Part shown: piece after piece, positions 46,289 to 64,000 of the stretch
Layout of the letters: each line of letters starts with the position of its first letter
Numbering within the stretch: the stretch's first letter is position 1
Assembly: GCA_003210055.1 (NCBI GenBank)
Contig: QCNS01000003.1
Location: forward strand, 1 to 64,000
Origin: SAR116 cluster bacterium AG-426-I14
GTDB taxonomy: Bacteria > Pseudomonadota > Alphaproteobacteria > Puniceispirillales > Marisalimonadaceae
Length of the DNA stretch: 64,000 bases
Direction: 5' to 3'
Notes under the pieces: model-generated
What the model was told of the DNA's origin: nothing
The model's database searches: none
The model's input: the letters and a program-made list of their open reading frames with translations, nothing else
Position numbers and translations under genes: made by a program

Positions 46289-46364
46289 GCCCAGGTAGCT
46301 CAGTAGGTAGAGCAGAGGACTGAAAATCCTCGTGTCGGTGGTTCGAATCCGCCCCTGGGCACCA
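46289..46364 (+). tRNA. tRNA-Phe (anticodon GAA)
   Basis: A 76-nt cloverleaf with encoded CCA. Acceptor GCCCAGG/CCTGGGC pairs, the anticodon loop CTGAAAA gives GAA, and the D-arm (AGCTCAGTAGGTAGAGC) and T-loop (TTCGAAT) are normal. The yacG-tRNA-Phe adjacency is common in alphaproteobacteria. Confidence 0.97.
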
Positions 46365-46528: not shown

Positions 46529-47326
46529 CTATTTATTATCAATTTCTGTATAAATTTGACCCAACTTACCATAATCTGCTGTAATTTTATCACCAGGTGA
46601 AAAATTTAATGGCTTAGCACAGGTTCCAGTTGAAACAAATTGGCCTTTTTTTATTGTTATGTTATTTTTTGAAAGTTCATTTACAAGCCAATTGAGAGCT
46701 AAATAGGGGCTTCCTAAAACATTCGAACCAGATCCTATATTAACACTTCCATTAGAAGAACTAATACTTATTTTAAGTTCTGATAAGTTTGTAACTCTCC
46801 ATTCTTCAGACATTTTTGGTCCAATAATAAACTGATGAGCGCAAGCATTATCAGCAATTAAAATAAATTCACCAACATTTGAAAAATTTTTAAAGCGAGA
46901 GTCTGGAAGTTCGATTGCAGGGTGCATTGTTCCAACTGCTTGCAAAATTTCATCATCAGTATAACTTTCCTTTTTTGGAAATAAATCATTTTTAAATTTA
47001 AAAGCTATTTCTGGTTCTGCAACTGACATATTATTTTTACTATTTTTAATAGTTGTATTATGTGTAAATACCTTCTCTTTTAAAATTCTTCCAATCAATG
47101 GATTTTTGACACCAATATGAAACTGACCTGCTTTACTTGTGGCTGCAATTTTCCATCCAAACAATGGACTTTTGCTGAATGACTCATAAACTTCTTGAAC
47201 ATTGTAGGCTTCTAATTTGGTTTTTGGGACAAATTTTGAAGGTAACTTATCTATTAAATTACCATTTTCCCATGAATTCCAAATTAATTCAGCTGCTCTT
47301 TTTGGTTCAAAATTTCTAAACATCAT
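46529..47326 (-). CDS. 2-keto-4-pentenoate hydratase/FAH-superfamily enzyme (MhpD-like)
   Basis: About 265 aa. The family hydrates 2-hydroxypentadienoates or decarboxylates 2-oxo-hexenedioates using a divalent metal. GWKIAATSKAGQFHIGVKNPLIGRIL, the metal site MSVAEPEIAFKF, MHPAIELPDSRF, and GSPYLALNWLVNEL with GQFVSTGTCAKPL match the MhpD/HpaH pattern. The start is uncertain (GTG 47338, ATG 47326 or 47323). It is last in the minus-strand run with the enolase-superfamily, GMC and TauD genes, so it may act on a 2-oxoacid made by the preceding dehydratase. Confidence 0.82.
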   Translation of the reverse strand: MMFRNFEPKRAAELIWNSWENGNLIDKLPSKFVPKTKLEAYNVQEVYESFSKSPLFGWKIAATSKAGQFHIGVKNPLIGRILKEKVFTHNTTIKNSKNNMSVAEPEIAFKFKNDLFPKKESYTDDEILQAVGTMHPAIELPDSRFKNFSNVGEFILIADNACAHQFIIGPKMSEEWRVTNLSELKISISSSNGSVNIGSGSNVLGSPYLALNWLVNELSKNNITIKKGQFVSTGTCAKPLNFSPGDKITADYGKLGQIYTEIDNK

Positions 47327-47377
47327 CCTATAAAACACTAAAAATACATTAAATTATTTTATATAATACTAACTGAT

Positions 47378-48583
47378 TTAAATATATTCTCTTAATAATA
47401 AACTTGAAGTATTAAACATCTCATTATTCAAATCTACCCCTAGACCAGGATTTTGGTTCAATGAGATCATTCCATTATTTATTATTGGTAATCCAGTAAC
47501 GATGTTTTGATACCAGTCATAAAAAAATGATCTTGTAATTTCTTGTTCTATCACATTCTGAAAAGTTAATGCTAGATGTGTTGAAGCCGCAAGTGTAATT
47601 GGTCCAGAACAATCATGAAAGGCAATAGATTTTCCTCTACTTTCAGCTATTGTAGCTGCTTTTTTAGCGAATGTTATTCCACCACCCCAAGTTACATCTA
47701 TAATTGGAAATGCAATATCGGCTACCTCAATTAACTGTGAAATTTGAGATAGTCCACCTAAGGTTTCACCTCCTGCTAGTGGTTGATTAGTATAATTTGC
47801 TAATTTAGGAATATCATAAAAATTATCCATCCAAATTGGATCTTCAACCCAGTCCATTTCAAATTCTTCTAGGGCTCGACATATTTTTTTTGATGCTTCC
47901 AAACTCCAAATACCATGAAGTTCTGCTTTAATTTTTATTTTATTTCCATGAGTTTTTCTAATTTTTTTAAATGGAGTTATATATTTTTTTAAATCATCTT
48001 TAGATATTGAAAGTCCTTTTAAAGCTCCTTTTGCAAAATCAAAAGGCCATATTTTCATAGATTTTATTCCCATCTCTAATAATGAAGTAGCTAATTCTTC
48101 AGGGTTGTTCATAAACATATCCAGATCTTCATAAACTTTTTTAAGTTTTTGTTTTGAGTGAAAAGTACCAAAATTTTCTGGTCTTACATCTGCGTTTTTA
48201 GAGACATATAATGGACCAGCACAAGTATTATAAACTTTTATACTTGTTCTAGTTTGCCCACCTAAAACTTGGTACAAAGGTACATTTAATATTTTTGCAT
48301 TTAAATCCCACAAAGCTACATCTATAGCAGATAAAGCCCTCATTTCTGCACCAGTTCCAAAAAAACCAATATATGGTCTCATCTTAGAGTAAATAAATTC
48401 AATTTTAGTTGGATCCTGATTTATTATAATTGGAGCAATTCTTGAATGAATATCAGCTTCGACCGCTTCTGCGCCAAACCAAGTTTCTCCTATCCCATAT
48501 AATCCTTCATTTGTATATATTTTAACCCAGATTAAATTTGGATGTTCAGGAATACGTATTGTTTGAATTTTAGTTATTTTCAT
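47378..48583 (-). CDS. Mandelate racemase/muconate lactonizing (enolase superfamily) dehydratase
   Basis: 401 aa. The N-terminal capping domain begins MKITKIQTIRIPEHPN. The barrel has RALSAIDVALWDLNAK, then the metal-ligand strand ends KAELHG, WVEDPI and AGGETLGG, and a late His in IAFHDCSGP. The ELHG pattern and GETLGG resemble acid-sugar dehydratases (galactonate, rhamnonate or mannonate types), which turn aldonic acids into 2-keto-3-deoxy acids. The substrate is not resolved. It lies 12 bases downstream of the GMC gene. Confidence 0.84.
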   Translation of the reverse strand: MKITKIQTIRIPEHPNLIWVKIYTNEGLYGIGETWFGAEAVEADIHSRIAPIIINQDPTKIEFIYSKMRPYIGFFGTGAEMRALSAIDVALWDLNAKILNVPLYQVLGGQTRTSIKVYNTCAGPLYVSKNADVRPENFGTFHSKQKLKKVYEDLDMFMNNPEELATSLLEMGIKSMKIWPFDFAKGALKGLSISKDDLKKYITPFKKIRKTHGNKIKIKAELHGIWSLEASKKICRALEEFEMDWVEDPIWMDNFYDIPKLANYTNQPLAGGETLGGLSQISQLIEVADIAFPIIDVTWGGGITFAKKAATIAESRGKSIAFHDCSGPITLAASTHLALTFQNVIEQEITRSFFYDWYQNIVTGLPIINNGMISLNQNPGLGVDLNNEMFNTSSLLLREYI

Positions 48584-48595
48584 TAAATAGACTTT

Positions 48596-50203
48596 TTATT
48601 CATTTTTCAAAATTAAATCTGATCCTTTTTCTGCAATCATGTTAGTTGCGGCATAGGTGTTTCCAGATACCATCTCAGGCATAATTGAAGCATCAATAAT
48701 TCGTAAATTTTTAACTCCATTTACTTTTAATCTTAGATCAACCACAGCATTTTGATCACTACCCATTCTGCAAGTACCAATAGGATGATAAATTGTAGAA
48801 CCATTTTTCTGTGCATAGTTTAGTAACTGCTCGTCACTAATAATATTTTTACCTGGTATTGTCTCTTCAATACAATATTCTTTTAATGGTGAAGACGAAA
48901 AAAACTTTCTTACTAACTTTATGCCTTCTACTATTGTCTGTTTATCAAATTCATTATCTAGATAATTAGGTTGTATTTCTGGAGGATCAATGGCTTTGTT
49001 AGAGACAGCCTTAACCCAACCTTTGCTAGCTGGTCTTAATTGAGTTACTCCACATGTCATGCCTGGCAATTTTTCTAGTTTTGCAGTTCCCACGTTTACA
49101 CTTTGATAACTTGCAGGTGCAAATAACATTTGTACATTAGGATTTTCCAACTCTCTTTTTGTTTTTGCAAATACACCAGCACTTGAAACTGGGGTAGTCA
49201 ACATACCTTTTTTAAAAAAAATATATTTAAAAATTTCATTCAATAAATATAAACCTCTTGATTTTTCATTGTATGTGGATATACCCTTTGCTCTCATAGC
49301 AATTCTAACTGCATAATGATCTTTTAAGTTTTGTCCAACTTCTGGTAAATGGTGTAAACATCTTACACCTATTTTTTCTAACTCTTCTTTATTTCCAATT
49401 CCTGAAATTTGTAAAAGGTGAGGAGTATTAATTGAGCCAGCGCTTAAAATAACTTCCTTTCTAACTAAAACTTTATATCTTTTATTTTTTTTTTCAAACA
49501 ATACGCCTTCTATTTTATTTTTATTTAATAATAACTTAAAGGCTAGTGAATTTTTAATTAACTTAAAATTTGGATTTTTTAAAATTGGTTTTAAATAAGC
49601 ATCCGCAGCACTCCACCTAGAACTATTTTTAATCATATTTTGGTATGTAGACGTACCTTCTTGACTTCCACTATTATAATCAACGTTTTTTTTAATACCA
49701 AATTTATCAACTGTATCTATAAAAATTTCAGTTAAAGGATGAACTTCAGTTAGATCTGAAATAATTAAAGGACCAGATTTACCTCTTACACTTTCATCAC
49801 CATTGATTCTGGTTTCTGCTTTTTTAAAATATGGCAGTACATTTTCCCAATCCCAGCCAGTACAACCTAATTGGGACCAACCATTATAATCAGCAGCTTG
49901 ACCTCTAACGTATAAATGACCATTAATTGAGCTCGAACCACCAATAACTCTCCCTCTAGGAAATTGAATAGACCTGTTATATGAGTTTTTTGATGGAGAA
50001 GTAAAGTAAGGCCAGTTTAATTTTTTATTATAAACTGTTTTGGAAAATCCTGCAGGTATTTTTATAAAGGGATTATTATCATCACCTCCAGCTTCAAGGC
50101 ATATGATAGAGAGGTTTTTGAATTTACTAGCCAATCTATTAGCAACAACACAGCCAGCCGCTCCAGCACCAATTATAAGATAATCGAAATGTAATTCTTC
50201 CAA
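48596..50203 (-). CDS. GMC-family FAD oxidoreductase (choline-dehydrogenase-like)
   Basis: 535 aa flavoprotein oxidising alcohols to aldehydes. The ADP-binding loop IIGAGAAGCVVANRL, the first GMC signature GRVIGGSSSINGHLYVRG, the second signature GSINTPHLLQISG, and the C-terminal catalytic HPIGTCRMG and NTYAATNMIAEK are present. No signal peptide. The substrate may be an alcohol or sugar derivative; choline is possible but no betaine genes are nearby. It follows the TauD-like dioxygenase by 12 bases. Confidence 0.88.
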   Translation of the reverse strand: MEELHFDYLIIGAGAAGCVVANRLASKFKNLSIICLEAGGDDNNPFIKIPAGFSKTVYNKKLNWPYFTSPSKNSYNRSIQFPRGRVIGGSSSINGHLYVRGQAADYNGWSQLGCTGWDWENVLPYFKKAETRINGDESVRGKSGPLIISDLTEVHPLTEIFIDTVDKFGIKKNVDYNSGSQEGTSTYQNMIKNSSRWSAADAYLKPILKNPNFKLIKNSLAFKLLLNKNKIEGVLFEKKNKRYKVLVRKEVILSAGSINTPHLLQISGIGNKEELEKIGVRCLHHLPEVGQNLKDHYAVRIAMRAKGISTYNEKSRGLYLLNEIFKYIFFKKGMLTTPVSSAGVFAKTKRELENPNVQMLFAPASYQSVNVGTAKLEKLPGMTCGVTQLRPASKGWVKAVSNKAIDPPEIQPNYLDNEFDKQTIVEGIKLVRKFFSSSPLKEYCIEETIPGKNIISDEQLLNYAQKNGSTIYHPIGTCRMGSDQNAVVDLRLKVNGVKNLRIIDASIMPEMVSGNTYAATNMIAEKGSDLILKNE

Positions 50204-50215
50204 AATCTTTCTCTT

Positions 50216-51070
50216 TTAATTTAAATATTCTGCTCTAGTGAAGCTGTCTTCAACTGTTGTTCTAACCAAATATCTCGGCTCCTCAGGGTTATAACTTTTG
50301 CCTCTATGAAGAATAGCTCTGTTATCCCAAATTAATAAATCATTTTCTTCCCATTCATGAGAATAAATAAATTTTTCTTTAGTAGCAAAGTCTAACAAAT
50401 AATTAAGTAAACCAATGCTTTCATTTTTCGATAAGTCTTTGACATATGCAGTATGTGAACCAAAATAAAGAGCCTTTTTTTTATTTTTTGGATTGACTTT
50501 AACCATTGGTTGAATTACCGGAGGGAATTTTTCATACTCTTCTTTACTTACCATTTTTTCATCAATTTTAGACCTTGAATGGGCAAAATGATGGACTGCC
50601 TTTAACTCATCTACCTTTAATTTTATGTCTTCCTTTAAATTTTCGTAAACGTTACGCATACTGACAAAGTCAGTATTACCACCTTGAGATGGAATTTTTT
50701 TACCTGATAGAATAGAGGCTTGAGCAGGTACAATTTTAAATGAACTGTCACTATGCCATTGTTGATTAGCTCTATCATTTTTTGATTGCTTATGACTCGT
50801 ACTTACTACATTACCAAATTCATCTATATTAGTTAAAATCACAACATTTGAATTTGAACCTAATGTACCTGGTTTTGTTATTTCTAATTTACCAAAAATT
50901 TTTGAGAATTTTATTTGTTCATCATTAGTGATTTTTTGATTTTTTATAATTAAAAGTGAATATTCTTCAAAAAGTTCAATTATTTTAGCAGACTCTTCTT
51001 TTTCAAGTTTTGTAATATCTACGTCACTTATTTCTTTTCCAAAGTCAGTATGAATATTTTTAGTTTTCAT
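50216..51070 (-). CDS. TauD/TfdA-family Fe(II)/2-oxoglutarate dioxygenase
   Basis: 284 aa. The iron facial triad is visible as HSDSSF (His-x-Asp) and the distal His of NRAILHRG; the 2-oxoglutarate Arg lies in RYLVRTTVED. The family hydroxylates sulfonates, phenoxy acids, carnitine-like and other substrates. An upstream gap of about 100 bases separates it divergently from the dehydrogenase/aldolase operon, so it is probably the first gene of the minus-strand operon. The substrate is unknown. Confidence 0.88.
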   Translation of the reverse strand: MKTKNIHTDFGKEISDVDITKLEKEESAKIIELFEEYSLLIIKNQKITNDEQIKFSKIFGKLEITKPGTLGSNSNVVILTNIDEFGNVVSTSHKQSKNDRANQQWHSDSSFKIVPAQASILSGKKIPSQGGNTDFVSMRNVYENLKEDIKLKVDELKAVHHFAHSRSKIDEKMVSKEEYEKFPPVIQPMVKVNPKNKKKALYFGSHTAYVKDLSKNESIGLLNYLLDFATKEKFIYSHEWEENDLLIWDNRAILHRGKSYNPEEPRYLVRTTVEDSFTRAEYLN

Positions 51071-51174
51071 AATAAATTACTCCTGAAAAAGATTTTATTT
51101 TAAACAAATAAAAAAAAATAAGTAGTTATTTTATTAATATTTTATTAAATTTAAATATTAAATAGGTAAATTAT

Positions 51175-52155
51175 ATGGAAACTAATAAAAGAAAAGTTTT
51201 GGTTGTTCAAGGCTTGCATGAAGAAGGCATCAAAATGCTTGAAAATAGACAAGATGTCGATTTTCAAGTTTTAATGTCTGATGATGAAAATGAAATTTGT
51301 GAAGCGGCAAAAGACGCTCATGCCATAACTGTAAGGACGGCTAACATTACTAAAAAAATTATTGAAGCTGCTGAAAAGTTGTTAGTTGTTTCCAGACATG
51401 GTGTTGGTTATGATTCAATCGATGTTGATACACTCACTTCAAAAAAAGTACCTTTAACTATAGCGGCAAATTCAAACATGGTTACAGTTTCAGAACATAC
51501 AATGATGATGATGTTAGGATTATCAAAAAATGTATTCTATTATGATGAATTTACAAGAAAAGCTGACTGGTCAACTAGATGGAATAATAAATCTTGGGAT
51601 CTTGCAGGAAAAAAACTCCTTGTGATTGGTTTCGGAAGAATTGGTTCTAGGGTGACAAAACGTGCTATAGCATTTGATATGGACATAATAGTTTATGACC
51701 CTTATGTTTCTAAAGATTTAATTCATGATGTGGGTGCAAAAAAAGTTGACAGCTATTTTGATATCTTATCAGAAATAGACGTTGTGACAATACATTGTCC
51801 AAGGAACAAACAAACTGAAAATATGTTTTCAAGCAGAGAGTTTGAAGAAATGAAGAAAACTTCCTACATCATAAATTGTGCAAGAGGAGGTATAATCAAT
51901 GAAATAGATTTATATGATGCTCTTAAAAATAACAAAATATCAGGAGCAGGATTAGATGTATTTGACATAGAACCAGCTCCATTGAATAACAAGCTTTTAG
52001 AATTAAAAAATGTTATTTTGTCACCTCACATTGCTGGCGTAACTGTCGAAGCAACCATAAGAATGTCAACTGAGTCTGTGCAAAATGTTTTTGATATTTT
52101 TGACAATAAAATAAATCAAAATGTAATTGTAAATAAGGAAATTATGAAGGGATAA
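51175..52155 (+). CDS. D-2-hydroxyacid dehydrogenase, SerA-like without ACT domain
   Basis: 326 aa. SRHGVGYDSIDVDTL, the NAD loop VIGFGRIGSRV, Arg in NCARGGIINE, Glu in FDIEPAPL and His in SPHIAGVTVEA are all in place. It has the same domain plan as the protein at 19249. The aldolase gene follows after 2 bases. Divergent transcription from the TauD-like gene suggests shared control of both operons. Confidence 0.86.
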   Translation: METNKRKVLVVQGLHEEGIKMLENRQDVDFQVLMSDDENEICEAAKDAHAITVRTANITKKIIEAAEKLLVVSRHGVGYDSIDVDTLTSKKVPLTIAANSNMVTVSEHTMMMMLGLSKNVFYYDEFTRKADWSTRWNNKSWDLAGKKLLVIGFGRIGSRVTKRAIAFDMDIIVYDPYVSKDLIHDVGAKKVDSYFDILSEIDVVTIHCPRNKQTENMFSSREFEEMKKTSYIINCARGGIINEIDLYDALKNNKISGAGLDVFDIEPAPLNNKLLELKNVILSPHIAGVTVEATIRMSTESVQNVFDIFDNKINQNVIVNKEIMKG

Positions 52156-52157
52156 TT

Positions 52158-52916
52158 ATGAAACAACAAGGCTTAAATAAATGTTGGATAGAGGGTAAAG
52201 GCGCAATCAATGGTTGGTGTTCGATACCATCTACGATTACAGCTGAGATAATGTCTCTTAATAAATTTGACTCTATAACGATTGACTTACAACATGGATT
52301 AATCGATTATCAAGCTGCTCTTAATATGCTTCAAACTTTGTCAAAAATAGAAATTACTCCTATGGTGAGAGTACCATGGAATGAACCAGGTATTATTATG
52401 AAATTATTAGATGCAGGTTCCTTAGGTGTTATTTGTCCAATGATAAATAACAAAGAAGATGCTCTAAAGTTTGTAGGTGCCACTAAATATGTACCAGATG
52501 GATTTAGAAGTTCGGGACCAACTAGAGCTTTGATGGTTCATGGTGGGGATTATCATAACGAGGCAAATGATAAAATTATTTCATTAGCTATGGTTGAAAC
52601 TGAAGAAGCATTAGAAAATGTTGACGAAATTGCATCAACTGATGGTTTGACTGGAATATATATTGGTCCATCGGATCTAAGTATTTCATTGGGGTTAAAA
52701 CCAGGATTAGACAGAACCGAAGAAAAAATTGTTCAGGCTATTGATAAAATTAAACTAGCATGTAAAAAGCAGAATATAAAAGTTGGTATTCACTGCCTAT
52801 CTCCAGAATTTCTTAAAAATAAGATTAAAGAAGGTTTTGATCTTACCACTCTTGCGTCAGATGTAAGATTTTTTACTGAGATGGTATCAAAAAAAATCCA
52901 AGAAGCTAGAGGTTAA
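52158..52916 (+). CDS. HpcH/HpaI-family aldolase (2-keto-3-deoxy-acid type)
   Basis: 252 aa. Catalytic His in IDLQHGLIDY, Arg in MVRVPWNEP, metal Glu in AMVETEEALEN and Asp in YIGPSDLSISLG. It is more canonical than the paralogue at 18473 and resembles 2-dehydro-3-deoxy-glucarate or -rhamnonate aldolases. An acid-sugar dehydratase encoded in the divergent operon would provide a matching 2-keto-3-deoxy substrate. The TSUP permease frame begins straight after its stop. Confidence 0.86.
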   Translation: MKQQGLNKCWIEGKGAINGWCSIPSTITAEIMSLNKFDSITIDLQHGLIDYQAALNMLQTLSKIEITPMVRVPWNEPGIIMKLLDAGSLGVICPMINNKEDALKFVGATKYVPDGFRSSGPTRALMVHGGDYHNEANDKIISLAMVETEEALENVDEIASTDGLTGIYIGPSDLSISLGLKPGLDRTEEKIVQAIDKIKLACKKQNIKVGIHCLSPEFLKNKIKEGFDLTTLASDVRFFTEMVSKKIQEARG

Positions 52917-52922
52917 TCAAAA

Positions 52923-53678
52923 ATTTTTTTTCCTGATTCTTATTTATTTTATATAATCACTTTTTTTGCTTTTTTTGCAGCTGGGATTTTAAAAGGTGCG
53001 ACTGGAGCAGGAGTTCCTATTATAACAATACCAGTGATTTCTGCATTTTATGATGTAAGACTAGCAGTGGTGATAATGGTTATTCCAAATGTATTAACTA
53101 ATATTCATCAATTATATAATTATAGAAAGTCAATATTGCCTTTACCAATGACATTTGCTTTTGCTTTCGGAGGAGGGTTTGGAGCTTTTATAGGAACTAT
53201 TTTTTTAGTAAACCTATCTTTAGAAGCTCTCTCAATAGGTGTGGGTTGCATAGTATTAATTTATGTAATATTTAAACTATTCGTACCGAGTTGGAAGCTG
53301 GTTTATCAAAAATCTAAAATTTTATTTTTCCCATTTGGGTTGTTTGGAGGTATATTACAAGGCGCTTCAGGAATTTCTGCTCCAATATCTATTACTTTTT
53401 TAAATTCAATGAAATTAACAAGAGAAACTTTTATTTCCACTATTTCAGTCTATTTCATGATGATGTCTTTTTTTCAGGCTCCGGCATTAATTTATTACGA
53501 ATTTTTAGGTTACGACATTATTATAGTTAGTTTAATTTGCACATTTGTATTGTTATCAAGCATGCCAATCGGGGCCAAAATAGCCAAGTCAATATCAGTA
53601 AATACTTTTGACAAGATAATTTTAATATTATTAGTAGTTATCTCATTCAAAATATTTTTTGATTTACTAATAGATTGA
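52923..53678 (+). CDS. TSUP (TauE/SafE)-family membrane permease, non-canonical start
   Basis: Sulfite/organic-anion exporter family of about 251 aa with seven to eight TM helices in two repeats. The repeat motifs ILKGATGAGVPIITIPVIS and ILQGASGISAPISI are visible. The first ATG/GTG/TTG in frame is GTG 53034, which would remove the first helix and its signature. The frame is open back to the aldolase stop (52914-52916), and ATT 52923 with AGAGG about ten bases upstream is the best start available. A sequence error that removed an ATG is equally possible. The family is linked to export of sulfite, sulfoacetate or carboxylates. Confidence 0.8.
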   Translation: MFFPDSYLFYIITFFAFFAAGILKGATGAGVPIITIPVISAFYDVRLAVVIMVIPNVLTNIHQLYNYRKSILPLPMTFAFAFGGGFGAFIGTIFLVNLSLEALSIGVGCIVLIYVIFKLFVPSWKLVYQKSKILFFPFGLFGGILQGASGISAPISITFLNSMKLTRETFISTISVYFMMMSFFQAPALIYYEFLGYDIIIVSLICTFVLLSSMPIGAKIAKSISVNTFDKIILILLVVISFKIFFDLLID

Positions 53679-54384: not shown

Positions 54385-55491
54385 TTATTTAGGAACTTTA
54401 CCAGTTACACCATCCAAGTAATAATTCATACCCCAAAGAGCACCATCATCTAATTCTTTACCAGATGCTAATATTTCTTTGCCTGAATTATCCTTTAATG
54501 GTCCAGCAAATATTTTTATTTTTCCACTTTTAATACCATCGTGAGCTTTTTTAGCTTTTGCTGCCACATCACTTGGCATGTTTTTAAATTCTGATAGTAA
54601 AAGCATATCAGTAGACATCCCACCCCAAGTATTTCCTGGCCAATGATTAGGCCCATCACCGGTATTCCATTTTCCATTTCTAAGTTGCTTAATTTTCTCT
54701 ACATAGTAAGGACCCCAATTATTTATTGAAGCAAATAATTGTGCTTTTGGCGCAAAAGCTCCCATATCTGTAGATTGTCCAAAACCCAAAGCCCCTTTTT
54801 TTTCTGCAATTTGCAACATGGCTGGAGAGTCTGTGTGCTGAGCTAAAATATCTGCACCTTCAGCAATGTGTACTTTCGCTGCATCAGCTTCCTTAACTGG
54901 ATCATACCATGTATTTGCCCATATGACTGAGATTGTAGCTTTATTATTTACTGATCTCATTCCCTGAGCAAAAGCATTTATTCCCATTATAACTTCTGAA
55001 ATAGGGTATGCACCTATGTATCCTATTTTATTGGTTTTAGTCATTAAACCTGCAACCACGCCTTGAACGTATCTGCCTTCATAGAATCTAATATTTCCTG
55101 TAGCAACATTTTTAGATCTTTTGTAACCAGTAATATGTTCAAATTTTACATTTGGAAACTCTTTTGCAACTTTTAAAGTTGGTTCCATGTAACCAAATGA
55201 TGTGGTGAAAATAATTTCATTACCTTGTTTTGCAAGTTCTCTAATAACTCGAGTAGCATCAGGACCTTCTGGAACATTCTCAACAACACTAATTTTAACT
55301 TTATTGCCAAATTCTTTTTCTACCATTTGTTTTCCTATTTCATGAGCGTAAGTCCAACCATGGTCACCTGGTGTTGTTAGATAAACAAATCCAACTTTGG
55401 TTGTTTTGGCCAATGCTTTAGTATTTACAAGTAAAAATGGTGTTATTAAAATGCTTAAGAAAGTAATCAATTTCATAAATTTCTTATACAT
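54385..55491 (-). CDS. BMP-family ABC transporter substrate-binding protein
   Basis: 368 aa periplasmic binding protein of the basic-membrane-protein/Med family, usually specific for purine nucleosides or related compounds. A Sec signal peptide (residues about 1-28, ending NTKALA) lacks a lipobox Cys, so the mature protein should be soluble. KVGFVYLTTPGDHGWTYAH, the TSFGYMEP loop and IGYIGAYPISEVIMGINAF are family features. It lies downstream of the ATPase and the two permeases and just before a strong hairpin, an arrangement that would favour a stable, abundant transcript of this gene. Confidence 0.88.
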   Translation of the reverse strand: MYKKFMKLITFLSILITPFLLVNTKALAKTTKVGFVYLTTPGDHGWTYAHEIGKQMVEKEFGNKVKISVVENVPEGPDATRVIRELAKQGNEIIFTTSFGYMEPTLKVAKEFPNVKFEHITGYKRSKNVATGNIRFYEGRYVQGVVAGLMTKTNKIGYIGAYPISEVIMGINAFAQGMRSVNNKATISVIWANTWYDPVKEADAAKVHIAEGADILAQHTDSPAMLQIAEKKGALGFGQSTDMGAFAPKAQLFASINNWGPYYVEKIKQLRNGKWNTGDGPNHWPGNTWGGMSTDMLLLSEFKNMPSDVAAKAKKAHDGIKSGKIKIFAGPLKDNSGKEILASGKELDDGALWGMNYYLDGVTGKVPK

Positions 55492-55572
55492 TTATATCTC
55501 CTTAAAAAATTTAATTCTAAGCTTAATTATAAAATGCACAATACTTATTTTTTAAAAAATTAAGTTTCTTTT

Positions 55573-56484
55573 CTAATTATTTTCAAGAAAAGGTTTACCT
55601 AAGCTAGATGGAACTAATGTATTACCAGAACGAGTCTTAATAGAAATTATTGATAATGCTATAATTGTGACCAAGTATGGTAGCATATTTAGAAATTGTG
55701 ATGGAAAAGGCCAACCTCTTGCCTGTCCTACGAATTGTAATATTGTAATACCACCAAAAATAAGTGCACCTAAAAGCAATCTAAAAGGAAGCCAGGAAGC
55801 AAAAACTACAAGTGCAAGAGCTATCCAACCTTTCCCCGCTGTCATTCCCTCTGACCAGTGAGGAGTAAGTACTAATGGTATATAAGCACCTCCCATACCA
55901 GCACACATGCCTCCAAAACCAACACATAATAATCTGATTATTTTTACTGGATAACCTATTGAATGAGCGCTGTCATGATTATCCCCTACAGCTCTAATAA
56001 TGATACCATATCTTGATTTAATCAAAAAAAAGTGTACCGCAATAATTAAGAGAATAGATAAATAAAATAAAATATCATGTTTGAAAAAAATAGAACCTAA
56101 AAAAGGAATATCAGATAAAAATATAATTTCGATTTTTGGTAAGGATGATATTGTTTTTCCTACAAATGGCTCACCGATTAAACCAGTTAATCCCGTAGCA
56201 AAAATTGTTAAACCTAAACCGGTGGCAACTTGATTTGTCATAAGGAAGATAGTGAAAAAAGAAAAGATTAAACTTATTAAAATTCCAGCAAGAGCTCCGA
56301 AAAAAATTCCTGCAAGAGGGTTTCCAAATATGAGAACAGAACCAAGGGCGGCAACAGCACCAGTTAACATCATGCCTTCCACACCAAGATTTAACACACC
56401 ACTTTTTTCTGCAATTAATTCTCCAGTTCCTGCTAAAAGAATTGGAACTGATGTAACTAAAATTGTTATTAATAAACTTTCCAT
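55573..56484 (-). CDS. ABC transporter permease (BMP/nucleoside type, second)
   Basis: 303 aa with about eight TM helices. EKSGVLNLGVEGMMLTGA is the characteristic N-terminal motif of the YufQ/NupQ-like permease, followed by NQVATGLGLTIFATGL and GDNHDSAHSIGYPV (the EAA-like cytoplasmic loop). It starts directly after the stop of the first permease, so the two form a heterodimer with the ATPase. Substrate as for the BMP protein. Confidence 0.92.
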   Translation of the reverse strand: MESLLITILVTSVPILLAGTGELIAEKSGVLNLGVEGMMLTGAVAALGSVLIFGNPLAGIFFGALAGILISLIFSFFTIFLMTNQVATGLGLTIFATGLTGLIGEPFVGKTISSLPKIEIIFLSDIPFLGSIFFKHDILFYLSILLIIAVHFFLIKSRYGIIIRAVGDNHDSAHSIGYPVKIIRLLCVGFGGMCAGMGGAYIPLVLTPHWSEGMTAGKGWIALALVVFASWLPFRLLLGALIFGGITILQFVGQARGWPFPSQFLNMLPYLVTIIALSIISIKTRSGNTLVPSSLGKPFLENN

Positions 56485-57561
56485 TTAACTATTTCTCTTT
56501 AATGAAACTTTATAATTTTGAATCGTTTCACCTGCTAACAAAAAAAATAATAAAATACCCTCAAAAATACCAGTTACTACTTTTGGAATACCTAATATCA
56601 TTTGAGCATTATCAGCACCTAGCTTAGCTGTAGCAATTACTAACCCTGCTATTATGACCCCATAAGGATTTAACCTACCTAGAAAAGCAACTATTATGGC
56701 TGTGAAACCATAACCGAAAGAAACTTCGGGCTGTAATTGACCCATATTAGCTGAAACTTCTATTACTCCTGCAAGTCCTGCCATACCACCAGACATAATT
56801 AGGACACCTAAAGTAATTTTATTTTTGTTAAAACCAGCAAAACTTGAAGCTTTAGGAGCAGATCCAAATACTTTTATTTGAAAACCAGGTAATGTTCTAT
56901 TTATTAAAAACCATGAAAATGGAGCTAAAAACAAAATACTTATAATTCCATAATGTAACTGACCTAAATAACCAATTCCAGGAAAGTTTATTTTGGAAAT
57001 TATTGCTCCATCGGGGTATGGCTTTGACAGTGGGAAACCAAAACTCATAGGATCTCTCAGAGGACCCCTGACAATAAAATCTATAAAAAGCATTGCAACA
57101 TAGACTAACATTAAGCTAACTAAAATTTCATTTACATTAAGTTTTATTTTTAATATTGCTGGAATAGAGGCCCACAAAGCACCTCCTAAAAATCCAACTA
57201 AAAACATTGAAAGCAAAAGAATATGATTATTATTTTCTGGAAATAATAAAGCAAATGAACCTGCACATAAAGTCCCAATGATAAATTGTCCCTCTGCCCC
57301 AATATTCCAAATATTTGCTCTAAAACAAAATATTAAGCCAATTCCAATTATAATTAATGGACAAGCTTTTACTAAAATATCTGCTATTCTATCAACCCTT
57401 GAAAATGGTGAAATAAAAACTTGGTATAAGGATTCTGTTACAGGGTAATTCAACATTTTAAATATTAAAGCACCTATTATTATGGTAAGAATTATTGATA
57501 TCAAAGGCCCAATTAATACCCAATGATTACTTTGAATAGTTCTAGGTGTAAATATTAGCAT
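56485..57561 (-). CDS. ABC transporter permease (BMP/nucleoside type, first)
   Basis: 358 aa with about nine TM helices. RANIWNIGAEGQFIIGTLCAG, LNVNEILVSLMLVYVAMLF and the loop IKVFGSAPKASSFAGFNKNK match the YufP/NupP-type permease. It begins 18 bases after the ATPase gene and abuts the second permease. No signal or fusion is seen. Confidence 0.92.
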   Translation of the reverse strand: MLIFTPRTIQSNHWVLIGPLISIILTIIIGALIFKMLNYPVTESLYQVFISPFSRVDRIADILVKACPLIIIGIGLIFCFRANIWNIGAEGQFIIGTLCAGSFALLFPENNNHILLLSMFLVGFLGGALWASIPAILKIKLNVNEILVSLMLVYVAMLFIDFIVRGPLRDPMSFGFPLSKPYPDGAIISKINFPGIGYLGQLHYGIISILFLAPFSWFLINRTLPGFQIKVFGSAPKASSFAGFNKNKITLGVLIMSGGMAGLAGVIEVSANMGQLQPEVSFGYGFTAIIVAFLGRLNPYGVIIAGLVIATAKLGADNAQMILGIPKVVTGIFEGILLFFLLAGETIQNYKVSLKRNS

Positions 57562-57579
57562 TATTAATTATCTTCCATA

Positions 57580-59106
57580 TTAACTTACACCCATTAAAAG
57601 TCCAACTTGTGTAGGAGTCATATTTTTTTTATTTTTTATTTTTGATAAGTTACCATTGCTGATAACACCTATACTGTCAGATAATTCAAAAATTTCGTCA
57701 AGGTCCTGACTTATTAGGATTATTGCTTTTCCCATACTCGCTAAATTCAATATTTTTTGTCTTATTATGTTTGCAGCTCCAATATCTACCCCCCATGTAG
57801 GTTGAGATATAATAACTAATTTTGGATTTGCTTGAAAAGCTCTTCCTATAACAAATTTTTGAAGATTACCTCCAGACAATTGCTTGGCTAAAGGGTTATC
57901 ATATGGACAACGGACATCATTTTTTTTCTCTATTTGTTTACTTGCTTGAATTGAAAGTTTTGGGTTAGTAAATATTTTGTTAAAAAAAGATTTATTAAAA
58001 ATATGGTAACCGAAGAATGTTAAAAATGTATTTTCATGAAGTTTGAGATCTGGAACCGTGGCGTGATTATTTCTTTCTTCTGGAACAAACTCAATTCCCA
58101 ATTGTCTTCTATATTCAATCTTTGAATTACCAATAGACTTATTTTCAAAAATTATTTCTTCTTTTTTACCTAACGTTTCTCCACTAAGTGCTTCCATTAA
58201 CTCTACTTGACCATTACCTGCAATTCCAGCGATACCCAAAACTTGACCATAATCAATAGTAAAATTTATATTATTCAAGGTAACTCCAAATTGATTTTTT
58301 TTAAAACGATAAAGATTGTTTACGGATAATGCTAAATTTGATTTTAATTTTTTTAGGTTTTTTTTAGCTTTAAGTCTTATTATTTTTTTGCCAACCATTT
58401 TTTCTGCCAAAATATTTGTTGAAACATTTTTTGTTTCCATTGTATCAACAACTTTTGCAGATTTAAGAATAGTCACTTTACTTGCTATTTCTTTAATTTC
58501 GTGCAGTTTGTGACTAATATATAAAATCGAACACCCAGATTTTGATAAATTTTTTAATACTTTAAATAAATTTACAATCTCTTGAGGTGATAAAACAGAA
58601 GTAGGTTCATCCATTATCAATAGTTTTGGTTTTTGCAATAAACATCTTACTATTTCAACTCTTTGTTGTTCTCCAACAGATAACTCAGCAACTTTTTTAG
58701 ATGGACTTACTTTTAATCCCCATTTTTTTGAAGTATTTATAATACTTTTCTCCAACTGTTTTTTGGTAAGTTTTTCATCAAGTGATATCAGAATATTTTC
58801 ACTTACACTAAGAGCTGGGAAAAGAGAAAAATGTTGAAAAACCATTCCAATACCCATTGCTCTAGCAAACTTTGGATTTAACAAATTAATAATTTTATTA
58901 TTGAATTTTATGTTTCCTTCGTCAGGAGCTAATAGCCCATAAAACATTTTAACCAATGTTGATTTTCCTGCTCCATTTTCTCCCAGAAGAGCGTGTATTT
59001 CACCTTTTTTGATTTCTATATTTATTGAGTCATTAGCAACAAATGAACCGAATTTTTTTGTTAAGCCAGATGCTTTTAGAAGAGTTTTTGAATTTTTTTT
59101 ATCCAT
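57580..59106 (-). CDS. ABC transporter ATPase, tandem domains (BMP/nucleoside type)
   Basis: 508 aa with two ABC domains. Domain 1 (about 1-245) has Walker A GENGAGKST, signature LSVGEQQR and Walker B LLIMDEPTS. Domain 2 (about 260-508) has a degenerate Walker A (GIAGNGQVE), LSGGNLQK and VISQPTWGVD. The degenerate second site is usual in the YufO/NupO and sugar-type ATPases. It pairs with the two permeases and BMP protein downstream, and lies 33 bases after the small membrane protein gene. Confidence 0.93.
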   Translation of the reverse strand: MDKKNSKTLLKASGLTKKFGSFVANDSINIEIKKGEIHALLGENGAGKSTLVKMFYGLLAPDEGNIKFNNKIINLLNPKFARAMGIGMVFQHFSLFPALSVSENILISLDEKLTKKQLEKSIINTSKKWGLKVSPSKKVAELSVGEQQRVEIVRCLLQKPKLLIMDEPTSVLSPQEIVNLFKVLKNLSKSGCSILYISHKLHEIKEIASKVTILKSAKVVDTMETKNVSTNILAEKMVGKKIIRLKAKKNLKKLKSNLALSVNNLYRFKKNQFGVTLNNINFTIDYGQVLGIAGIAGNGQVELMEALSGETLGKKEEIIFENKSIGNSKIEYRRQLGIEFVPEERNNHATVPDLKLHENTFLTFFGYHIFNKSFFNKIFTNPKLSIQASKQIEKKNDVRCPYDNPLAKQLSGGNLQKFVIGRAFQANPKLVIISQPTWGVDIGAANIIRQKILNLASMGKAIILISQDLDEIFELSDSIGVISNGNLSKIKNKKNMTPTQVGLLMGVS

Positions 59107-59139: not shown

Positions 59140-59319
59140 TTATTTTTTATTATTCCTTAAAATGTAAAATAATAATAGTCCAGAAGAAATAAAAACTACA
59201 GAAATAAATAAATTGAAGATACTCACATGCATATGGTTTAACCCACATGCAAAAATAATTAATGAAACAATTATTATTGCTATCCAGTGATTTAAAGGTC
59301 CTATAAATATATTCTTCAT
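59140..59319 (-). CDS. Small two-TM membrane protein, 59 aa, unrecognised
   Basis: The ATG (59319-59317) overlaps the TRAP permease stop in a four-base ATGA junction, the usual sign of translational coupling. The predicted protein is 59 aa: a short N-terminus, TM1 about residues 12-26 (HWIAIIIVSLIIFAC), a loop with His, Asn and Met (GLNHMHVS), TM2 about 33-53, and a basic C-terminus (RNNKK). Positive-inside reasoning suggests both ends cytoplasmic. It sits between a TAXI-TRAP permease and an ABC importer and might be an accessory subunit of the TRAP permease. No family recognised. Confidence 0.7.
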   Translation of the reverse strand: MKNIFIGPLNHWIAIIIVSLIIFACGLNHMHVSIFNLFISVVFISSGLLLFYILRNNKK

Positions 59320-61328
59320 TTGGAACTCTCTAAATTAAAATTTAATTTACCTTGAAGAAAGTATATTAAAGTTAATAAAATAAATCCTAAAGCATTAATA
59401 ATAAATCCAGAAACCTCATAAATTGTTTCTAATGGTGGTATTAAAAGAAAAATTGAACCAACAATTGATATTAATCTTTTGTATATATTTAGAGGGCCAT
59501 TGAACCAACCTTCTAATCCTAGGGTCATGCACCAATAAGCAAGAAGCACTGAACAAAGACTATATATGCTAATTAAGATTGGTCCTTCCATTAATAGAGA
59601 AGGGTTATAAATGAAAGCAAACGGAACTATATATTTCGCTATTCCTACTTTACTTGACTCTACTGCTGTCGACATTGGAGGTGATTTTGCAATAGCTGCT
59701 CCTGCAAATGATGCTAATGCAACAGGGGGAGTTATTGTTGATACAACACCAAAGTAAAAAGCAAACATATGAGCGGCAACTGGAATTATACCTGACTGAA
59801 TAAGAGAAGGTACTATTAATGCAGCAACAGTTATATATACTGCTGTTGTAGTCATACCCATTCCTAAAATGATAGCAGAAATTGCAGTTAAACACAGTAG
59901 AGGAAATAACATTCCACCTGATAACTCAATTACAGATTGAGTAAATTTTAATCCTAATCCAGAAACAAAAACTGAACCTATTATTATTCCTGCACAAGCA
60001 CAGGCTATAGTAACAGGCACTGTTGATTTAATACCACTTTCAAAGGCGCCTAATAAATCTACCACAGACATACGAGTATTTTTTTTAAAAAAACTTAAGA
60101 TGATAACAGATACTATAGCCCAAAAACCTGCTTTCATTGCTGTATAACCATAAATTAGCAAACCCATCAGTACAACCAAAGAAAGTAGCATATGCCAGCC
60201 ACCTCTGAGGACTTCAAATATATTAGGCAACATAGATTTATCAATTTTTTCAATCCCATGCTTTTCAGCTTCCACATGGACCATGAAATAAATTGTTGTA
60301 AAATATAAAAAAGCAGGAATTATTGCGGCTAAAATAACATAAGAATAAGGTGCCTCTAAAAATTCAGCCATTATGAAAGCGGCTGCGCCCATTATTGGCG
60401 GTGTTATTTGTCCACCAGATGATGCACATGCTTCTACAGCAGCCGCGAACTTTGCTCTATAACCGTAATTTTTCATAAGTGGGATAGTAAAAGAACCAGT
60501 GGTTACCACATTTGCTACTGCAGAACCATATACAGTTCCTGTCATACCTGACGCTACAACAGCAGCTTTAGCTGGGCCACCTGTTCTGTGTCCTGTTAAA
60601 GCTATAGCTAAATCAACAAAAAAACGACCAACTCCAGATCTAATTAAAATACCACCAAAAATAATAAATAGGACAATATAGGTTGAAGCTACATATAAAG
60701 GTATTCCAAAAATACCATCAGACGTCATAAATAAAGTATCAATGTATTTTGCTAAATTTGTAGGAGGGCCATAAAAGAAACCAAAAAACTTATGTGCAAA
60801 CAATGCATGCATCATAAAAAACACTGCAACAAACACCATAGCCCAACCAACTGCTCTTCTAGTACCATCTAAAACTAAGTATAATAGAATAGAACCAACG
60901 ATAATATCACCAATGTATTTATCGCCATATCTTAGTGTAAAAGTTTCAATATCCCAAATAGTCCATAACTGAACAAACAAAATCATTAAAATTATTAAGA
61001 GATCATAAAAAAAACCAGCAAGTCTTAAAAAATTATTTTTATCATTAACGATAAAAATAGGGTCTTTCAGACTTTGACGAAATAAAGGATATATAAATAC
61101 TGCAAGTATCATCATTACTGATAAATGAACCGATCTGAATGATCTGCCTTCAGGTGTTCCGTAAACTGCAACAAATAAATGATAAAAAGCTAGACTTACA
61201 GAAAGCCAACTACAAATTACTATAATCCAATATGTAAAAGATTTTTCTTTAGACCAAACAATAAGTTCATCTAAAAAACTAAATTCTTTTACTTCATTAT
61301 AAACTAGTTTTTTTTGACCTTTAGTCAT
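59316..61328 (-). CDS. TRAP transporter fused permease (4TM/12TM)
   Basis: 670 aa secondary transporter for TAXI-type receptors, fusing the small DctQ-like domain (N-terminal helices about 35-190) to the large DctM-like domain. VASGMTGTVYGSAVANVVTTGSFTIPLM, the SSGGQITPPIMGAAAF loop and GMGMTTTAVYITVAALIVP are family hallmarks. About 16 or more TM helices are expected. It lies 57 bases after the receptor gene across a strong hairpin. TAXI-TRAP systems move organic acids with Na+; the substrate here is unknown. Confidence 0.94.
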   Translation of the reverse strand: MTKGQKKLVYNEVKEFSFLDELIVWSKEKSFTYWIIVICSWLSVSLAFYHLFVAVYGTPEGRSFRSVHLSVMMILAVFIYPLFRQSLKDPIFIVNDKNNFLRLAGFFYDLLIILMILFVQLWTIWDIETFTLRYGDKYIGDIIVGSILLYLVLDGTRRAVGWAMVFVAVFFMMHALFAHKFFGFFYGPPTNLAKYIDTLFMTSDGIFGIPLYVASTYIVLFIIFGGILIRSGVGRFFVDLAIALTGHRTGGPAKAAVVASGMTGTVYGSAVANVVTTGSFTIPLMKNYGYRAKFAAAVEACASSGGQITPPIMGAAAFIMAEFLEAPYSYVILAAIIPAFLYFTTIYFMVHVEAEKHGIEKIDKSMLPNIFEVLRGGWHMLLSLVVLMGLLIYGYTAMKAGFWAIVSVIILSFFKKNTRMSVVDLLGAFESGIKSTVPVTIACACAGIIIGSVFVSGLGLKFTQSVIELSGGMLFPLLCLTAISAIILGMGMTTTAVYITVAALIVPSLIQSGIIPVAAHMFAFYFGVVSTITPPVALASFAGAAIAKSPPMSTAVESSKVGIAKYIVPFAFIYNPSLLMEGPILISIYSLCSVLLAYWCMTLGLEGWFNGPLNIYKRLISIVGSIFLLIPPLETIYEVSGFIINALGFILLTLIYFLQGKLNFNLESSK

Positions 61329-61352
61329 AGAAAAATCTTAGAAGAATTGAAT

Positions 61353-61378
61353 AAAAAGGCACGTAAACGTGCCTTTTT
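61353..61378 (-). terminator. Intrinsic-terminator-like hairpin between TAXI receptor and TRAP permease
   Basis: The arms AAAAAGGCACG (61353-61363) and CGTGCCTTTTT (61368-61378) are perfect complements around a four-base loop. The stem has a GC-rich top and an A/U base on both strands, the classic symmetrical terminator form. It starts 7 bases after the receptor stop and ends 25 bases before the permease start, on the same transcript. It probably acts as a partial terminator or 3' stabiliser so that receptor mRNA exceeds permease mRNA. Confidence 0.75.
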
Positions 61379-61385
61379 AAAATTA

Positions 61386-62342
61386 TTACATTACACCAAC
61401 TTCTTTATAGTATTTAGCTACACCTGGGTGTATTGGAATAGCTGAGCCTGTAACAGCTTCTTTTAAAACAACTTTATTCCAAATACTTTTAACTTTTGCA
61501 AACTCTGCATGATTTTCCCAAAAGACTTTAGCCATTTTATATACTAAATCATCAGGTAAATCTTTATGAACAATTGCAGATGTAACAATTCCTAATGTTG
61601 GTATATCAAAAGGATTGGTTTTATATGCGCTTGATGGAATAACAGCTTTGATATAACCTGGATTATTTTTTACAATTCTATCAAGTCTGTGTGGTGGAAG
61701 ACCAATAAACCTTATTCCTGGACTATTTTCTAATTCAAGAAAACTAGCTTGAGGAACAGATGTTGCTGCCATAAAAACATCAGCTTGACCATCTTTCATC
61801 AAAGCCACAGACTCTTTATAACTTACCATATGAACGACACCACCATTTTTTTTAATAGTGTCGAAGTTAAATCCATAATCCTTTAAAATTGACTCACAAA
61901 AGGCTGTACCAGTCCATTTTGGTTTTCCAGGACTAATATTAGCTGCTTTCATATCTTCAAAACCTTTTATTTTTGAGTCCGCTCTTACAGCAACTTGAAA
62001 AGCTGCAGGATACAATGTTGCAAAATAACGCACATTTTTTCTTGCTTTCTTAAATTTACCTTTTCCATTATAACCGTTAGCAACTGTATGTGCATATGTA
62101 AAACCAAATTGTGCATCTCCGTCGTCTACTGACATTACGTTAGAGATTCCTCCTCCAGATGTATTGGAAGTAGCAGTTCCTTTAATTTTTGCTTGAAAGG
62201 TTTGCATGATTTTAGCACCAAGTGGATACCAAGAACCTCCAGAAGGCCCTGACACCATTTTGATAAATGTATCTGCATTAGCCACATTTGCTAAAAAAGC
62301 AAATGAAGATGCTATCGCAAGTAGTTTAACAGTTTTTTTCAT
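61386..62342 (-). CDS. TAXI-family TRAP transporter solute receptor
   Basis: About 318 aa periplasmic receptor. A Sec signal peptide spans residues about 1-23 (ending NVANA). MVSGPSGGSWYPLGAKI with TSNTSGGGISNV is the TAXI ligand-binding signature, and AQFGFTYAHTVANGY follows. ATG 62342 is chosen since GGGGGA sits ten bases upstream; the ATG at 62357 would overlap that site. It is first in the long minus-strand transport operon and divergent from the HMG-CoA-lyase-family gene. Confidence 0.92.
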   Translation of the reverse strand: MKKTVKLLAIASSFAFLANVANADTFIKMVSGPSGGSWYPLGAKIMQTFQAKIKGTATSNTSGGGISNVMSVDDGDAQFGFTYAHTVANGYNGKGKFKKARKNVRYFATLYPAAFQVAVRADSKIKGFEDMKAANISPGKPKWTGTAFCESILKDYGFNFDTIKKNGGVVHMVSYKESVALMKDGQADVFMAATSVPQASFLELENSPGIRFIGLPPHRLDRIVKNNPGYIKAVIPSSAYKTNPFDIPTLGIVTSAIVHKDLPDDLVYKMAKVFWENHAEFAKVKSIWNKVVLKEAVTGSAIPIHPGVAKYYKEVGVM

Positions 62343-62476
62343 TTTAATTTCCCCCATAACTGTATTTTGAAAATGATTTCATAGTTCACTAGTTATTTAT
62401 GCATGAGTCAAGTATTATAAAAATAATAATGATTATTTTCTAAACATTTATTATATATAGAAGGGGAGGTTTAACG

Positions 62477-63421
62477 ATGAACAAAAATATAAAAAATGTT
62501 ATAATTACTGAGGTAGGTACTAGAGATGGTTTTCAATCTGAAAAAAAAACTATTGATACGCAAGATAAAATATTGCTAATTGATGATTTAGTAGATGCTG
62601 GATTCAAAAGAATAGAATTTTCCTCCTTTGTCTCTCCTAAAGCAATTCCTCAACTAGCTGATGCTGATCAAGTAATCAAACAAGTTAAAAGAAAATCAGA
62701 TGTTACTATGACGGCACTTGTTCCAAATTTGCGAGGTGCAATAAGAGCTGTTGAGTCAAAAATAGATGAAATTGTTGTTTTTTTGTCAGCTTCAGAAAGT
62801 CACAATAAGAAAAATCTAAATAGAACCATAAATGAATCTTTGATAGGTTTTGAAGAAGTAATTAAGTTGGCTCAAGACTCAAATATTCCTGTTCATGGTG
62901 ACATTTCAACTGCATTTGGTTGTCCTTTTGAGGGTGAAATATCAGTTAAAAAAATTGTAGAAATAACGAAAGAATATAAAAAATTAGGTTTCAAAGGTGT
63001 TACTCTTGGAGATACAACTGGAATGGCAACACCACCTGTCGTAACAAAAACAATTCGTGAAATAAAAGAAAATATTCCAGATTTTGAAATAACTCTTCAT
63101 TTTCATAATACTAGAGGTGTTGGGTTGGCAAACGTACTCGTGGGACTGAATGAGGGAATTACTCATTATGAAAGTTGTTTTGGTGGTATTGGAGGATGTC
63201 CTTTTGCTCCTGATGCTACTGGAAATATTTGTACCGAAGATCTTGTTTATTTATTACATGAAATGAATATCCAAACTGGTATTGATTTAAATAAATTAAT
63301 TCAAGTAGCCCAAAAAGCTGAAACCATTCTAGGTTATACCCTTCCTGGGCAAGTAATGCATGCAGGTCCAAGGTTAAAAAAATATTCAGTTGATAATGTT
63401 CCTACAGCAACTGGTGGGTGA
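62477..63421 (+). CDS. HMG-CoA lyase family enzyme
   Basis: 314 aa TIM-barrel DRE-metallolyase-type enzyme cleaving HMG-CoA or a related 3-hydroxyacyl-CoA. EVGTRDGFQSE (catalytic Arg-Asp), the metal site LHFHNTRGVG (His-x-His) and the loop GGIGGCPFAPDATGN with the reactive Cys are all present. GGGGAGG lies just upstream of the ATG. The CoA-transferase gene follows after 7 bases, suggesting activation of an organic acid to a CoA thioester and its cleavage. (S)-citramalyl-CoA or similar is a possible alternative substrate. Confidence 0.9.
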   Translation: MNKNIKNVIITEVGTRDGFQSEKKTIDTQDKILLIDDLVDAGFKRIEFSSFVSPKAIPQLADADQVIKQVKRKSDVTMTALVPNLRGAIRAVESKIDEIVVFLSASESHNKKNLNRTINESLIGFEEVIKLAQDSNIPVHGDISTAFGCPFEGEISVKKIVEITKEYKKLGFKGVTLGDTTGMATPPVVTKTIREIKENIPDFEITLHFHNTRGVGLANVLVGLNEGITHYESCFGGIGGCPFAPDATGNICTEDLVYLLHEMNIQTGIDLNKLIQVAQKAETILGYTLPGQVMHAGPRLKKYSVDNVPTATGG

Positions 63422-63428
63422 ATTACCT

Positions 63429-64000
63429 ATGAATGAAAAAGGGGCTTTAAACGGAATAAAAGTTATCGATTTAACAAGAGTTATCTCTGGACCTTTTTGT
63501 ACACTTTTGTTAGCTGATATGGGAGCTGAAGTTATTAAGGTAGAACCACCTAAAGGAGATAATGTTAGAAATCAAGGTAATTTTGTTGACGGCTTCAGTG
63601 CTTATTTCACTCAATTTAATAGAAATAAAAAGTCTATAATTTTAGATTTATATAAAGATAAAGATAAAGATATTTTAAAATCATTATTAAGTGCATCAGA
63701 TGTGTTAGTCGATAATTTTAGACCAGGCATACTATCTAAAATGGGATTTGATGAAAATACACTTAATAATATAAACCCAAGATTAATAAAAGCCTCTGTA
63801 AATGGATTTGGAAGTAAAGGAGAATATAGTCAAAGACCTGCGTTTGATTTTATTGCTCAAGCTATGTCTGGTTTTATGCATATGAATGGTTCAGATGATA
63901 CTGGCCCAGTTAGAACAGCATTACCTATATCAGATCTTATTGCAGGGTTATATTGCGCATTTGGTATAGTATGTGCTTTGCAATCAAGACAAAAATCTAA
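63429..64000 (+). CDS. Class III (CaiB/BaiF) CoA-transferase, 3'-truncated by window edge
   Basis: The first 190 residues of a frame that runs off the window. LNGIKVIDLTRVISGPFCTLLLADMGAEVIKVEPPKGD is the family N-terminus. NRNKKSIILDL, DVLVDNFRPGIL and the catalytic Asp of PAFDFIAQAMSG follow. Members transfer CoA between carboxylic acids such as succinyl-CoA and a hydroxyacid. ATG 63429 is used; the nearby ATG at 63433 is in another frame. Operon with the HMG-CoA-lyase-family gene. Confidence 0.92.
   Translation, partial: MNEKGALNGIKVIDLTRVISGPFCTLLLADMGAEVIKVEPPKGDNVRNQGNFVDGFSAYFTQFNRNKKSIILDLYKDKDKDILKSLLSASDVLVDNFRPGILSKMGFDENTLNNINPRLIKASVNGFGSKGEYSQRPAFDFIAQAMSGFMHMNGSDDTGPVRTALPISDLIAGLYCAFGIVCALQSRQKS

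Follow-up and report, generated by a model that had tools for sequence, protein, structure and literature searches.

Do the seven genes at positions 46529 to 53678 of a 64,000-nt stretch of DNA from SAR116 cluster bacterium AG-426-I14 (contig QCNS01000003.1, positions 1 to 64,000; the whole stretch is referred to here as the window) make up a single catabolic pathway, and if they do, what kind of compound would enter it? SAR116 is an abundant lineage of the surface ocean whose carbon substrates are, to our knowledge, poorly known, and the locus offers a small, testable gene set in which a dioxygenase–oxidoreductase pair is tied to an aldolase module. A preliminary description had joined all seven genes into one possible route, running from oxidative attack through dehydration and aldol cleavage to the export of an anion, and had raised a sulfonated substrate as an option. 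We find that the locus is a mosaic of a conserved core and later genes, an anatomy that is well supported. Our overall reading, to which we give a probability of roughly one half, is that this is a mosaic catabolic locus in which an old five-gene divergent core was joined, in one sub-clade, by an enolase-superfamily gene and an MhpD-like gene, with the working order set out below.

All seven open reading frames named in the preliminary description are present with the span and orientation that it gave them, and two profile libraries (Pfam and NCBIfam) confirmed their families through matches to FAA_hydrolase-C and the MhpD-HpaH group, MR_MLE N and C, GMC N and C, TauD, 2-Hacid_dh, HpcH_HpaI and TauE. 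The features are as follows.

46529-47338, minus strand: MhpD/HpaH-like protein (FAH-fold hydratase/decarboxylase group; Pfam/NCBIfam), most simply a late addition
47378-48583, minus strand: MR/MLE enolase-superfamily protein of the 4dx3/2pod group, likely an acid-sugar dehydratase (Pfam/NCBIfam, structures), most simply a late addition
48596-50203, minus strand: GMC flavin oxidoreductase, partner of TauD (Pfam/NCBIfam)
50216-51070, minus strand: TauD/TfdA-superfamily Fe(II)/2-oxoglutarate dioxygenase of its own subfamily (TKxG[TS]), with the HxD...H triad and C-terminal arginines
51071-51174, no strand: AT-rich divergent intergenic region of 104 nt, with promoters presumed from the layout
51175-52155, plus strand: D-isomer-specific 2-hydroxyacid dehydrogenase (HADH), like phosphoglycerate dehydrogenase (PGDH) and glyoxylate reductase (Pfam/NCBIfam)
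52158-52916, plus strand: HpcH/HpaI class II pyruvate-type aldolase (Pfam/NCBIfam, structure 6r62/7o5i, motif)
52923-53678, plus strand: TSUP (TauE/SafE) anion transporter with a probable ATT start (PF01925 match)

By these coordinates, the minus-strand genes would be transcribed in the order TauD, GMC, enolase and MhpD-like with gaps of 12, 12 and 39 nt, and HADH and HpcH lie 2 nt apart on the plus strand; this spacing, together with the 104 nt that separate the two halves, fits two divergent operons. A promoter scan of the intergenic region gave no clear excess over shuffles, and an Rfam scan found tRNAs only, among them tRNA-Phe at 46289-46364.

To ask which of these genes belong together, we scanned genomes of the family (58), the order (136) and the class (385), and refer to genera within SAR116 as g1 to g4, where g1 comprises the genome of the window (G000; 1.88 Mb in 65 contigs, ~78% complete), G001 and G002. 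A TauD of the g1/g4 type occurs in 13 of the 136 order genomes, and HpcH lies divergent from it and ~1 kb away by coordinates in every one of them (13/13), across a range of 60-72% TauD identity; TauD and HpcH are both absent from 3 of 13 g4 genomes. We read the core gene by gene in six loci (the window, G001, G002, G045, G049 and G054) and found TauD-GMC opposite HpcH-TSUP with the dehydrogenase between them, its frame in G045 not being called separately. The loci of G002 and g4 hold TauD-GMC divergent from HADH-HpcH-TSUP without enolase and MhpD, and where the contig reaches, the next genes encode, in turn, a hypothetical protein, a BMP-type ABC transporter and a TRAP transporter. The seven genes had been presented as a single set; what is conserved is five of them.

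The enolase and MhpD-like genes have a far narrower distribution. Orthologs of the enolase were found in 3 of the 136 order genomes (G000, G001 and G043), and a search through the enolase for the whole seven-gene neighbourhood in the family, order and class sets returned only G000 and G001, the only genomes in which both genes occupy this site. A scan of named genomes with the enolase gave four loci, with the cluster only in a SAR116 single cell: the closest named record, SAR116 cluster bacterium AG-426-B08, has the whole seven-gene set in unchanged order, with identities of 96-99%. The enolase gene of G043, at 75% identity, lies on a short contig that holds no core gene; upstream are an isochorismatase-family gene and two small ones. 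For the MhpD-like protein, the match in G001 is 96% identical and the next best SAR116 relatives are 49-57% identical and unlinked at the loci read. Given the absence of the pair from the core of G002 and g4, the three genomes of the order with an enolase ortholog and the unlinked relatives, the two genes are most simply read as a late addition to the 3' end of the TauD-GMC module in one sub-clade; their loss in all other lineages is a less simple alternative. On this reading, what separates these close relatives is a catabolic operon that has gained two genes. Elsewhere, MhpD-like homologs in eleven g3 genomes (L152, L153, L156, L158-L162 and L164-L166) carry an in-frame stop, as if decaying, and G000 holds some eight to ten further loci of the MR/MLE enolase superfamily.

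The enolase-superfamily protein has both MR/MLE domains and the expected metal and base residues (by motif, K177, E221, H223, E247, E273, D296 and H323 are the likely acid/base and metal residues), and it scores below the NCBIfam equivalog cut-offs for acid-sugar dehydratases with a known substrate (best 177 vs. 311). Relatives at 42-43% identity sit beside lactonases and sugar dehydrogenases and, in Vibrio, beside an aldolase of the dihydrodipicolinate synthase family. The preliminary description called the second protein an MhpD-like hydratase: the likeness to MhpD stands (NCBIfam places it in the HpaH/MhpD group at 94 bits), but the word hydratase is unproven, as this score is far below the equivalog cut-off of 351, the Pfam match is under the gathering score (20.9 vs. 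23.9 bits), and the best solved relative is the 4-oxalocrotonate decarboxylase NahK.

On one rival reading, the enolase and MhpD-like genes were acquired for a step of their own, which would use the TauD-GMC promoter without passing its product to HpcH. The restriction of both genes to this site in two genomes, the core of G002 without them and the G043 enolase away from the core all favour such a separate step, but the tight 12-nt spacing behind GMC and the recurrence of sugar-acid dehydratases near HpcH aldolases in independent lineages speak against it, and we regard it as possible but doubtful. That recurrence takes several forms. The window HpcH is a class II aldolase by its PF03328 match and its active-site residues (H46, R71, D85, E147 and D173, by motif). 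In G166, another genome of the order, the neighbourhood of a 60%-identical relative includes an IlvD/Edd sugar-acid dehydratase and an epimerase-type short-chain dehydrogenase/reductase, and relatives at 43-49%, in several genera and on plasmid loci, lie beside MR/MLE, garD/gudD or iolD/iolE/iolG genes. In Mesorhizobium, the MR/MLE gene next to HpcH shares only 24% identity with the window enolase, so that the recurring thing is the pairing and not the gene. These contexts of HpcH and enolase fit a 2-keto-3-deoxy-acid route in which a polyhydroxy-acid dehydratase would feed a keto-acid aldolase. The dehydratase-to-aldolase step of the preliminary description is plausible from such repeated contexts in other lineages, but the enolase stands outside the conserved core. 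For HADH, the resemblance to PGDH and glyoxylate reductase in sequence comparisons suggests that it could reduce a 2-oxoacid product. In two loci (L221 and L224), HADH and Ldh_2 genes occur as neighbours, which might point to a racemising pair of the SlcC/ComC kind, and this stays a lead only.

Several observations weigh against the reading of the locus as one mosaic pathway. The window HADH shares only ~35% identity with its counterparts in inositol clusters, which makes that comparison loose; the nearest solved relatives of the enolase (4dx3 and 2pod) bear generic names only; and its orthologs elsewhere, at 56-75% identity, have none of the other six genes beside them where their surroundings were read (those at 56-63%, as far as the contigs read, in other alphaproteobacteria). 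The two modules of the core lie at separate sites in g2 and g3, where HADH-HpcH has an extra zinc-type dehydrogenase before TSUP at the same BMP site and TauD-GMC is a lone pair elsewhere, and a single pathway is therefore not required. The two operons do occur together, as the preliminary description required, in every genome with the g1/g4-type TauD, and lie apart in g2 and g3.

This separation leads to the proposal that two unrelated pathways stand back to back, with TauD-GMC and HADH-HpcH-TSUP sharing nothing more than their location. In its favour, the modules are unlinked not only in g2 and g3 but also in G164 and G437, and the flanking gene order (hisD-maf and BMP-ABC) belongs to a shared backbone. 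On the other side stand the linkage in all 13 g1 and g4 genomes with this TauD, maintained over the full range of TauD identity, and the trees of TauD, GMC and HpcH, each of which joins g1 to g4 apart from g2 and g3. Weighing these, we consider two unrelated pathways somewhat unlikely. Within the first module the pairing is stable: GMC adjoins TauD in g1, g2, g3 and g4 and in two other alphaproteobacteria (G164 and G437). In G164, which is unrelated, a different HpcH-family gene follows the TauD-GMC pair (L226, 3704-6976).

The sulfonate option of the preliminary description can be weighed first on TauD. Membership in the TauD/TfdA superfamily is clear (PF02668 at 200 bits, the HxD...H iron triad and a C-terminal arginine), and the WHSD/WHxD, HR and R motifs are kept in 33 relatives and in the more distant L238. 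The protein is well short of the NCBIfam cut-off for taurine dioxygenase proper (141.7 vs. 313). In that enzyme, His70 and Arg270 contact taurine and Tyr73 lies in the pocket (PMC9304159). In the alignment to the E. coli enzyme, His70 is replaced by T and Tyr73 by G, within a TKxG[TS] stretch found in the window protein and in 33 of 33 close relatives compared, and Arg270 is kept, which makes an acidic substrate likely. The best solved relatives are dioxygenases of the 2,4-dichlorophenoxyacetate (2,4-D) type (5bke and 5j92), and plasmid matches, at 33-34% identity, were uninformative.

A sulfonate or sulfosugar pathway would have TauD free sulfite, TSUP export sulfite or a sulfo-acid, and the aldolase act on a sulfo-keto-acid as in the sulfo-Entner-Doudoroff (sulfo-ED) pathway. 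The TauD and TauE Pfam assignments speak for it, as does the description in other bacteria of an iron/2-oxoglutarate-dependent sulfoquinovose (SQ) dioxygenase with sulfite excretion and of an aldolase step on 2-keto-3,6-dideoxy-6-sulfogluconate (KDSG). The T and G substitutions, however, extend across the whole TauD subfamily and the nearest structures are of the 2,4-D type; Xsc passed its cut-off in 0 of the 58 family genomes; at the locus itself we saw neither a glycosidase nor an SQ dehydrogenase, nor any other gene specific to sulfonates; and TSUP appears dispensable, being absent from the site in G043 (L188) and interrupted by a stop in G040 (L175, 9139-9882). Weighed on the pocket residues, the nearest structures, Xsc, the genes of the locus and TSUP, a sulfonate substrate becomes less likely, and we judge the sulfonate route improbable. 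The more likely candidates are sugar acids and O-substituted organic acids.

The TSUP gene itself has an unusual start. No ATG, GTG or TTG occurs at the expected position (52917-52961), and the first such codon, GTG at 53034, falls inside the conserved domain. An ATT at 52923 follows an AGAGG stretch by 10 nt and is present in G001 and G002, with a TTG near the equivalent site in g3 and g4 genes, so that on the simplest reading the gene would begin at this non-canonical ATT. The family call comes from the PF01925 match, sulfite transport is a prediction, and no solved relative of the protein was found.

The mosaic reading can be given a working order, in which we infer the sequence of steps, the substrate, the direction and the TSUP cargo. 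TauD would hydroxylate a carboxylated substrate beside a hetero-substituent and release the substituent, and GMC would oxidise the freed alcohol; the enolase would remove water from the polyhydroxy acid so formed, giving a 2-keto-3-deoxy acid, which HpcH would cleave to pyruvate or hydroxypyruvate and an aldehyde; HADH would reduce the resulting 2-oxoacid; the MhpD-like enzyme may hydrate or dehydrate a side intermediate; and TSUP would serve as the anion exporter of the HADH-HpcH module. A stronger proposal is that SAR116 has a pathway not yet described, acting on a sugar acid that is O-substituted or ether-linked: the TfdA-type dioxygenase and GMC would strip off a substituent, a keto-acid aldolase route would take up the product, and one sub-clade would have lengthened the route by capturing an acid-sugar dehydratase. 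In this specific form we think it unlikely. The open-access papers searched contained no pathway matching the seven-gene set, in line with the remark in the preliminary description that none with exactly this set was known. If the substrate were found, an enolase-superfamily group that is so far uncharacterised would gain a function, as would a TauD subfamily.

Two transport units lie downstream. Wherever the SAR116 core loci that we read extend far enough, a BMP-type ABC transporter (54385-59106 in the window) adjoins the core; its binding protein resembles 3s99 of Brucella and 6pi5 of the atrazine pathway, which suggests a purine- or heterocycle-like cargo. At 59316-63998, a TAXI-type TRAP transporter stands beside genes for an HMGL-like lyase and a CaiB-type CoA transferase, and this stretch is probably a separate unit for acid uptake and activation.

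Among known systems, the sulfo-ASDO route shares an iron/2-oxoglutarate-dependent dioxygenase with the locus and sulfo-ED a dehydratase and a KDSG aldolase; the window locus differs from both in having no assigned SquF-type reductase or SQ dehydrogenase and a TauD without the taurine-pocket residues. TfdA and the 2,4-D dioxygenases (5bke, 5j92) have the same iron triad and arginines, but their similarity to the window TauD is only moderate, and the latter has the TKxG[TS] motif and a GMC partner. The closest solved relative of HpcH, the hydroxyketoacid aldolase of Sphingomonas wittichii (SwHKA; 6r62/7o5i), has the same class II active-site residues, with GIFC where the window protein has GIHC. 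The expansion of enolase-superfamily paralogs in SAR202 (PMC6946804) likewise gives a small marine genome several MR/MLE paralogs that diverge from one another, whereas the window has one paralog embedded in a defined operon. Sugar-acid pathways of the 2-keto-3-deoxygluconate type with HpcH/HpaI aldolases similarly bring a polyhydroxy-acid dehydratase, HpcH and a 2-oxo/hydroxyacid oxidoreductase into one locus, and related HpcH genes occur in garD/gudD, IlvD/Edd and MR/MLE clusters; the window locus adds TauD and GMC and has no lactonase, and in most relatives the core is without a dehydratase. In sum, known kinds of enzyme are combined here in a mosaic, a variant of the gene clusters of the sugar-acid/keto-acid aldolase type.

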